Of a stretch of 36,433 nt of DNA, positions 2,549-36,433 are shown in pieces. The notes under the pieces were generated by a model that was not told the origin of the DNA, ran no database searches, and saw only the letters and a list, made by a program, of their open reading frames with translations. Position numbers and translations under genes: made by a program. Location of the stretch: assembly GCA_003597955.1 (NCBI GenBank), contig QZJU01000015.1:1-36433 (forward strand). The letters are read 5' to 3'. This stretch comes from Candidatus Parcubacteria bacterium (GTDB lineage: Bacteria > Patescibacteriota > Patescibacteriia > PEXW01). Position 1 is the stretch's first letter. Each line of letters begins with the position of its first letter.

Positions 2549-2576
2549 ATTATATGTCCGGCCGGCTTTTTGTCAA
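2549..2576 (-). promoter_or_regulatory. strong promoter of the orphan gene pair
   Basis: Reverse strand: consensus TTGACA (2576-2571), a 16-nt spacer and consensus TATAAT (2554-2549), the best promoter in the window. The predicted start is near 2542. The -35 abuts the repeated GC-rich element at 2575-2591. Confidence 0.8.
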
Positions 2577-2591
2577 CCCCGCACCACTTTC
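2571..2591 (-). repeat. 21-bp promoter-associated repeat, copy 1
   Basis: The reverse strand here (GAAAGTGGTGCGGGG running into TTGACA) is identical over 21 bp to the forward strand at 36133-36153. In both places the GC-rich block sits immediately upstream of and overlaps the -35 box. A third copy of the block, in opposite orientation, lies at 36041-36059. Confidence 0.9.
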
Positions 2592-34282: not shown

Positions 34283-36025
34283 ATGCTTGAATCAATATTC
34301 AAAGTTATACCCTTAAGAAGAGTGCCTCGAAAGCTTGAAATTTTGAATTACCTTCTGGCGCCAAAATCGAAAGAACCGCAAAGGGGCGAGATCGTCAAAA
34401 TAGTTTTTGGCAAAAAAAAGATCTCCGGCGTGGTCTGGGCGAAGACGCGAAATTCCAGTGGTATCAGTGAAGCAAAACTTAAGAGTTTTGAAACTGAAAA
34501 AAATCCCCAGAGGTTTTCAAATTATCAAATCGCCTTGAGCGAATGGTTAGCCGAAAATACCCTTGCGCCTTTGAATGTTATTTTCTTAGCGTTAACTCAT
34601 TTAGATTTTAAAGATTTTCAGCCCAGCTTAAAATCAATTTCAAAACCAGAATTAATTCTAGCCAACCGTTTGAGTACCCGAGAAAATTTGATAAAGATTT
34701 GGTCAAACAAGATTAGTTCCGATGAATCAAAAACTTTGGTTATTGTGCCGACATACGCTTATGCCGAAACATGGCTTAAGCATCCGTCTTCGTCCACCGT
34801 ATTTTTGCACGCCAAATTGACGCAGGCTCAAGAAAAAGAACTGCTGAAAAAATTACCTTGCGCTAAACTTGTTGTTGCCACGTTTAAGGGCCTTTTCTAT
34901 CCCCTGCCGAAATTCGGCCGAGTGATCGTGGATCAGGCTGATGACGAAGGATTTTTTGCTTTTGATCAAATGCCGCGGTTGGATATTCGACAAATCGCAA
35001 GATTTATCGCTGATTTGAATAACGCCCGTTTGATTTTTTTGGCGCGATGGCCAAGTCCAACCATTTTAGCCTTTAATCCCCGAAAACCTTTGCGCCGACT
35101 CGATAATCCGCTAGCTATCAGCCTAATTGATCGAGAAAAAGAGAACTTTGGCGAGCGAAAAGAGCTGATTAGTTCGAGACTTTTAACCAAAAGTCTGACT
35201 GGAAAAAACTTGTGGTTAATTTCGCAGAAATTTGAAGTTGCGCAATACCGGTGCCGGGATTGCCAAGCAATAGTTAGCTGTCCGAAATGCCGACTGCCGT
35301 TAAAACTTTTCGTCCTAAACAAAAAAACCGTGCTTATTTGCGAGAGGGACAATTTGAAAATCGCGCCCCCGGAAAAGTGTGAAAATTGCCAAGGATCAAA
35401 TTTTTCAACCTTTGGTTTTGGGCCTGATCGAATTGTGAGTATTCTGAAAAAAAGCTTTCCGAACGCTAAAATCGCATTACTTCAAAAAACCCAAGATTAT
35501 AAGCACTTAAAAACGGTTAAACATCTCATCGCCACGACCGCGATTGCGAATTATCCACAGGCCCGTTTCGATAACGTAATAATTTTAAACCCTGAAATTG
35601 TTTTAAATAGCGGAGAGTACCGAGCCAAAGAAAAATTCGTTGGCTTAATTTTCCTAGCCGGACAATTTCTTCAAGCTTCTGGCTCGTTGTTTATCCAAGT
35701 GTCCAAAAGCGACATCCTGGGCGTTAAAATAGAAAAAGATTTTTATGAAATATCCAAAAACTTTTTAAACGAAAGGAAAACCTACCACTACCCGCCTTTC
35801 GGTTGCATAGTGATGCTCAAGCCGACTGGATCTTTTCGGAAACTTACGCCGCCATTTGAACCGGAAGCGCTACAAATTTTAAAACTTGACTTCAAGGTCG
35901 ACCAAATTGAAAATAGAATCATAATCAAGTCGAACGCCGAAAACAAAAAAAACCTTTTGCATTTTTTGCGATCTAATTTGAAAGACCCTTGGTCAGCCTG
36001 GGTTAACCCACCGGACTTTAATTAG
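34283..36025 (+). CDS. priA: PriA-like primosomal protein with degenerate ATPase motifs
   Basis: A 580-residue PriA homologue, shorter than the E. coli protein (732). The N-terminal DNA-binding part ('RGEIVKIVFGKKKISGVVW', 34-52) and the zinc region (Cys324, 327, 333, 336, 353, 366, 369) identify it. The helicase motifs are lost: the Walker A site has become 'LILANRLSTREN' (about 124-135, no GKT), DEAH has become Asp217-Gln-Ala-Asp220, and the AGRAGR arginine motif has become 'LAGQFLQASG' (458-467). The eighth zinc cysteine is Asp356. It probably still recognises forks and recruits partners, as proposed for actinobacterial PriA, but should not unwind DNA. Confidence 0.88.
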   Translation: MLESIFKVIPLRRVPRKLEILNYLLAPKSKEPQRGEIVKIVFGKKKISGVVWAKTRNSSGISEAKLKSFETEKNPQRFSNYQIALSEWLAENTLAPLNVIFLALTHLDFKDFQPSLKSISKPELILANRLSTRENLIKIWSNKISSDESKTLVIVPTYAYAETWLKHPSSSTVFLHAKLTQAQEKELLKKLPCAKLVVATFKGLFYPLPKFGRVIVDQADDEGFFAFDQMPRLDIRQIARFIADLNNARLIFLARWPSPTILAFNPRKPLRRLDNPLAISLIDREKENFGERKELISSRLLTKSLTGKNLWLISQKFEVAQYRCRDCQAIVSCPKCRLPLKLFVLNKKTVLICERDNLKIAPPEKCENCQGSNFSTFGFGPDRIVSILKKSFPNAKIALLQKTQDYKHLKTVKHLIATTAIANYPQARFDNVIILNPEIVLNSGEYRAKEKFVGLIFLAGQFLQASGSLFIQVSKSDILGVKIEKDFYEISKNFLNERKTYHYPPFGCIVMLKPTGSFRKLTPPFEPEALQILKLDFKVDQIENRIIIKSNAENKKNLLHFLRSNLKDPWSAWVNPPDFN

Positions 36026-36040
36026 ATTATGATTCTGTTT

Positions 36041-36149
36041 AACCCCGCACCACTTTCCAGTAAAGCGCCAACACTTAGTACTAAGATATTTACTAGGCAA
36101 ACAACCTTACACTAAACTTAAGGTTTAATTTGGAAAGTGGTGCGGGGTT
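36041..36149. repeat. 109-bp element with perfect 19-bp inverted repeats
   Basis: Left arm 36041-36059 (AACCCCGCACCACTTTCCA) is the exact reverse complement of right arm 36131-36149. The 71-nt middle is AT-rich and holds a perfect 12-bp palindrome (CTTAGTACTAAG, 36074-36085). The right arm runs into the -35 box of def. The same block precedes another promoter at 2571-2591. No target-site duplication or coding sequence is seen. MITE-like or regulatory. Confidence 0.85.
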
Positions 36150-36176
36150 GACAAAGCAACTTTTGCAAGTTATTTT
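36148..36176 (+). promoter_or_regulatory. def promoter
   Basis: Consensus TTGACA (36148-36153), a 17-nt spacer and TATTTT (36171-36176), with a start about 3 nt before the ATG at 36186. The first two bases of the -35 belong to the inverted-repeat arm. Confidence 0.7.
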
Positions 36177-36185
36177 TTCTTAACT

Positions 36186-36433
36186 ATGGCAATTAGAAAA
36201 ATTGTTACAATCCCCCATCCGATTCTTCGGCAAGTTATGCCTGAAATAAATTTTAAACAGATTTCTCTGGAAGGACTAAAAAAAATCATTGATGACTTAA
36301 CTGAAACGATGTTTGCCGCTGACGGGGTTGGCATTGCGGCCAACCAAGTTGGGTTAAATTTACGAGTTTGCGTGATAAACGCCAAAACCGGACCAGTGGT
36401 CCTGATCAACCCGAAAATTCAAAAGTTTTCTTG
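36186..36433 (+). CDS. def: peptide deformylase, cut by the window end
   Basis: The first 82 codons of peptide deformylase, the metalloenzyme that removes formyl from new proteins. It opens with 'IVTIPHPILRQV' (about 5-16), which matches the family start, and carries motif 1 'GVGIAANQVG' (about 47-56; canonical GxGxAAxQ). Motifs 2 (EGCLS) and 3 (HExDH) lie beyond the window. The ATG at 36186 follows a clear promoter with almost no leader. The reading frame is intact to the edge. Confidence 0.92.
   Translation, partial: MAIRKIVTIPHPILRQVMPEINFKQISLEGLKKIIDDLTETMFAADGVGIAANQVGLNLRVCVINAKTGPVVLINPKIQKFS

Follow-up and report, generated by a model that had tools for sequence, protein, structure and literature searches.

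A MITE-like element in the def promoter of a Patescibacteria genome and its probable GIY-YIG-encoding relatives

The inverted repeat upstream of def

The locus raises the question of why a perfect inverted repeat should adjoin the −35 box of def and why one of its arms should recur beside a second TTGACA. The window, that is, the whole stretch of 36,433 nucleotides analysed here, comprises bases 1–36433 of contig 4 of a Patescibacteria genome (990 kb, 21 contigs) that shares its genus with a Ca. Kerfeldbacteria genome. The element is located between a PriA-like gene (34283–36025, plus strand, assigned by inspection of the translation) and the peptide deformylase gene def (36186–36433, plus strand, continuing past the window end). 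The left terminal inverted repeat, AACCCCGCACCACTTTCCA (36041–36059, minus strand), and the right, TGGAAAGTGGTGCGGGGTT (36131–36149, plus strand), are each 19 nt long, 100% complementary and separated by 71 nt. The element body, CCCC...GGGG (36043–36147, no strand given), is flanked by TTAA on the left, in the position of a target duplication (36039–36042), and by TTGA on the right (36148–36151, plus strand); the two 4-mers match at three of four bases, an imperfect duplication. TTGA is the target site and forms the first four bases of the def −35 box TTGACA (36148–36153, plus strand), which is followed after a spacer of 17 by the −10 box TATTTT (36171–36176, plus strand). The single strand of the element folds with z = −6.7.

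This geometry is as the sequence-only reading described it, and that reading also rightly noted an identical block at a second place, although it gave 21 bp (2571–2591) where the block common to the right arm and the minus strand at 2569–2591 is 23 nt, ending in TTGACA in both places. The second site is a solo arm (2569–2591, minus strand) with TTGACA at 2571–2576, a 16-nt spacer and TATAAT at 2549–2554; an inverted partner was looked for and none was found. No chance match to the 23-nt block occurred in 100 shuffles, in line with the earlier judgement that chance identity is very unlikely. The resemblance to MraZ boxes that had been suggested does not hold, as there is one AAAGTGG per arm, inverted and upstream of def, and the tandem spacing of an MraZ box array is absent. 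An integron attC site (RYYYAAC...GTTRRRY) was also considered, but the right end, GTTGACA, misfits GTTRRRY.

Copies, ends and target site

A genome-wide search with the arm AAAGTGGTGCGGGGT gave 90 matches at two or fewer mismatches in the host genome, compared to 2 for the reversed control. Most of the arms form inverted pairs, about 37 in number and 103–169 bp in length, the majority being 103–113 bp and three being larger (133–169 bp). Five 45-bp palindromes share their outer ten bases with the inverted pairs, giving a total of about 42 elements, and there are a few solo arms, that at 2569–2591 among them. Some elements are 97–99% identical despite unrelated loci; the window element matches the copy at 81893–81999 of contig 17 at 106 of 107 positions (A...T ends counted), and these two copies lie in opposite orientations relative to their own promoters. 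The core, some 70 nt long, is conserved from copy to copy, and the two arms of one element are more alike (0.89 mismatches per 17 nt) than arms of different elements (1.94; 0 of 5000 permutations). A larger subfamily has these ends and TGGTTGT...GGTTTTGGGTATAGATAT-like cores (contig 2, 40398–40566; contig 6, 25167–25299; contig 4, 72253–72392).

The terminal inverted repeats begin CCC[C/A]GCACC..., and the 4-mers that flank CCC...GGG are directly repeated and follow the pattern TTNA. Among the pairs listed from 14 other genomes, in which paired arms were taken regardless of flank identity, 64 of 80 have exact direct repeats (permutation 14, maximum 27 in 5000 permutations). Exact repeats flank 25 of the 42 host elements (13.5 expected, maximum 21) and 51 of 82 on named public contigs, with 13 expected. 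Some copies, that of the window among them, have imperfect direct repeats, which counts against the mechanism proposed below. In G104 and G111, paired ends carry unlike 4-mers (TTCA/TGAA, TTTA/TGAA), like the TTAA/TTGA of the window, which may stem from bases brought along from a donor site or from copies having recombined. A C usually follows the right TTNA copy, and two to three bases ahead of the left one GG is overrepresented, which makes the target approximately GGN|TTNA|C.

The window element is thus short and non-coding, with terminal inverted repeats, many dispersed copies and a short (4-bp) TTNA target-site duplication, preserved in three of four bases; these are features of a MITE. 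ISDra2 and IS608 have the targets TTGAC and TTAC, and REP/RAYT and other IS200/IS605 palindromes, which Y1 (HUH) transposases mobilise, resemble the present copies in their foldback structure and TTGAC-like target. The host genome has RAYT genes, but the arms do not flank them, the Y1 genes are unlinked to the elements, and several element-bearing genomes give no Y1 match. HUH elements make no target duplication, whereas the flanks here co-vary (TTTA/TTTA, TTGA/TTGA, TTCA/TTCA). Movement by such an enzyme is therefore very improbable, and the copies do not belong to the RAYT/REP group.

Insertion into promoters

The position of the arms relative to −35 boxes was analysed for the host copies that end in TTGAC. 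A −10 box (TA...T) is located 16–18 bp downstream in 23 of 24, compared to 10.5% for other TTGAC in the host genome (p = 7e-22) and 38 of 90 intergenic controls (42%; p = 1e-6); coding controls gave 15 of 414. Together with the TTNA direct repeats, this indicates MITE-like insertions into −35 boxes with regeneration of the box. The duplicated target is TTGA, and the −10 box belongs to the unique DNA alongside, so that existing promoters receive the element without being disrupted. The proposal that it spreads a ready-made promoter is consequently not supported, since the promoter preceded the insertion. Sequence specificity does not by itself account for the surplus of true promoters relative to intergenic TTGAC (96% versus 42%), which weighs against the mechanism proposed below; both transcription-linked access and selection are possible, and how the element finds promoters becomes a question in its own right.

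The association with real promoters, beyond intergenic TTGAC sites generally, is what would be expected if the inverted repeat were a conserved operator that binds a regulator beside −35 boxes, as had also been suggested. An operator, however, accounts neither for cores conserved over some 70 nt nor for direct repeats that follow the target, and the elements lie either way round relative to the promoter, at random. It leaves the copies in pilin and epimerase coding sequence and the GIY-YIG-bearing versions described below unexplained and is contradicted by the restored empty sites, so that we give it very little credence, although some copies could have been adopted by a regulator. The other earlier suggestion, a small non-autonomous mobile element, is borne out by dispersed near-identical copies, direct repeats and restored empty sites.

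Insertion into coding sequence

Scanning 85,000 genomes for both ends as a pair gave 89 stretches, most of them from Patescibacteria (Kerfeld-, Komeili-, Moran-, Staskawicz-, Magasanik-, Doudna-, Levybacteria and others); some came from Nitrospirae/Thermodesulfovibrionales, Omnitrophota and Deltaproteobacteria, and no paired element was found among 2.9 million viral contigs. Many copies interrupt pilin genes precisely at G^F, the prepilin site, and other coding copies are located in NAD-dependent epimerase-like genes at VTGGAG^FIG. Contig 16 of the host has a run of pilin genes with leaders inside elements. The old gene start is kept on the left flank (e.g. MHLLVTGGAG, MRRNPQNCHG), and the right end of the element encodes a new start (MRLLITGGAG, MKSGAG) that replaces the lost residues. 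Several copies (L089, L093, L098, L116 and L148) are open in frame throughout. The same-genus genome does not keep the gene order ahead of def, so empty sites within genes served in place of one at priA–def: joining the flanks at the repeat restored a normal gene start in all 14 cases tested.

Tandem arrays of arm units of about 33–38 bp (FTLLARKSGAG repeats) occur at pilin starts (L125, 900–1200; L109, 7230–7400; G107, contig 56, 970–1134), where the assemblies contain N runs; the arrays look as if the element had inserted repeatedly into its own regenerated target. An 85-bp unit comprising an epimerase start and an element is duplicated in tandem in L155 (6270–6481). L114 (genome G478) has seven elements within 8 kb, each inside another repeat with GCGAAGCGAG/CGCTTCGCTC arms, and L076, L090 and L129 have similar flanks.

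Elements encoding a GIY-YIG protein

Two longer elements among the hits of the scan, 285 and 293 bp in length (L146 and L114), encode a complete GIY-YIG protein between the ends of the short elements. The L146 element is laid out as MNKG|TTCA|element|TTCA, with matching direct repeats at a pilin site, and its GIY-YIG ORF runs in frame via the right end (FKNGAG) into the pilin (FTLVELL). As a blind check of the prediction, ends spaced 256–316 bp apart were sought in 380 Patescibacteria genomes with no other criterion; five loci were found, and in four a single-domain GIY-YIG ORF fills the element, from which we infer an autonomous parent, a GIY-YIG element of 285–310 bp. L243 is an in-frame fusion of GIY-YIG to a pilin with TTTA repeats, L246 has TTGA repeats at a −35/−10 promoter site with a recognisable −10 box, and L247 has TTGA repeats at a TTGACA site. 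The long-element proteins score well above the Pfam cut-off for GIY-YIG (PF01541), and the fusions also match N_methyl. Tyr, Arg and Glu of the catalytic site do not vary, and with this domain and these residues the protein of the parent belongs to the GIY-YIG superfamily; among solved structures, UPF0213 (1zg2) and SLX1 (6seh) are closest.

Only four GIY-YIG ORFs are present in about 560 kb around short elements, and each of them is either inside an element or no more than about 100 bp away from one. GIY-YIG genes or remnants adjoin elements on host contigs 16 and 2, and in G478 the subterminal sequence of the GIY-YIG element is similar to that of eleven 41-bp palindromes. Several observations count against a GIY-YIG parent: the host genome contains no intact copy bounded by the terminal inverted repeats, most GIY-YIG genes in the genomes surveyed lack these ends, and three genomes with a GIY-YIG element gave no short copies under the pattern used. 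The candidate parent does share its ends with the short elements, but its gene encodes a GIY-YIG protein, not a known transposase.

MITEs are normally driven by DDE transposases, for which a fixed 4-bp direct repeat is typical, and we know of no GIY-YIG enzyme that acts as a transposase; such an enzyme would be without precedent. The main rival is accordingly that a conventional transposase moves all copies with these ends in trans and that the GIY-YIG gene is a captured passenger. We regard this as unlikely, as among the arm pairs listed from about 20 genomes there is neither an IS-sized element with these ends nor a transposase between them, and GIY-YIG is the only ORF found inside such ends, at six independent loci and with diverged proteins. 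A 1153-bp arm pair in G111 was considered as a larger element and rejected, since it contains ordinary genes.

Proposed mechanism

Our preferred reading, to which we assign a probability of roughly 0.7, is a non-autonomous MITE-like element that inserts at GGN|TTNA(C), duplicates TTNA and has autonomous GIY-YIG elements of 285–310 bp as relatives. These share ends and targets with the short copies and carry a single gene, for an SLX1/UvrC-type GIY-YIG endonuclease of about 85 amino acids, which is likely the mobilising enzyme. The nuclease would recognise the GGG/TNNA junction found at both element ends as well as the GGN/TTNA target and would make cuts staggered by 4 nt at each; the cut that the model predicts in GGGTTTAC/GGGTTGAC duplexes is this stagger at TTNA. 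Fill-in by the host would then produce the TTNA duplication, and the short copies would be mobilised in trans. Insertion at TTGAC, the −35 consensus, regenerates the −35 box and would for this reason be tolerated. GGN-TTY-AC or GGN-TTY-ATH encodes the prepilin G^F and the GAG^FIG of Rossmann epimerases, so that here insertion regenerates the protein N-terminus, with the same expected outcome. The choice of target motif would amount to a safe-haven strategy, in which the insertion itself rebuilds the promoter, prepilin cleavage site or Rossmann motif that it enters.

With some reserve, we lean towards a new class of DNA transposon of about 300 bp, with terminal inverted repeats, a 4-bp duplication and a GIY-YIG protein of about 85 amino acids as its only mobility enzyme, which targets −35 boxes and Gly-Phe codons, restores the gene that it enters and in pilin genes makes its nuclease a removable prepilin leader. 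If so, it would be among the smallest autonomous DNA elements known, moved by a single-domain nuclease outside the accepted transposase classes, and some of the small GIY-YIG genes that are frequent in Patescibacteria may represent such elements.

Comparison with known systems

Prokaryotic MITEs such as Correia elements (PMC10969869) are likewise short, free of ORFs and near promoters, with inverted ends, target duplication and many copies. In its anatomy the window feature is a MITE, and the novelty would lie in the GIY-YIG parent element. No DDE parent was found; the parent here encodes GIY-YIG, unlike every MITE parent known to us. Correia elements carry promoters themselves, whereas here the promoter is the target, with the TTNA duplication in the −35 box.

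The nuclease domain and its invariant residues are common to the present protein, GIY-YIG homing endonucleases and single-domain proteins of the Slx1 cluster (PMC1564403; PDB 1zg2, 6seh). Homing endonucleases also spread selfishly and insert in conserved coding motifs, but homing genes move by allelic gene conversion and have neither terminal inverted repeats nor short target duplications. The ectopic copies of the present element, with inverted ends and target duplication, argue that allelic homing is probably not its sole mode. GIY-YIG-coding insertions that resemble no intron are described in CPR rRNA genes (PMC11270868). They share CPR hosts and GIY-YIG cargo with the present element but have rRNA targets, and the part of that report used here mentions neither inverted repeats nor pilin or promoter targeting; they could be relatives. 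Our survey of the open-access literature gave no account of GIY-YIG elements bounded by terminal inverted repeats or of GIY-YIG–pilin fusions.

A different arrangement is seen in L206 (1459–1850, genome G003) and L058 (1600–2150, host contig 2), where a GIY-YIG gene and a short palindrome interrupt or adjoin a tRNA-Leu-like gene. Ahead of the insert stands the 5′ portion of this tRNA and after it a full tRNA copy, which suggests an insertion that restores the tRNA.
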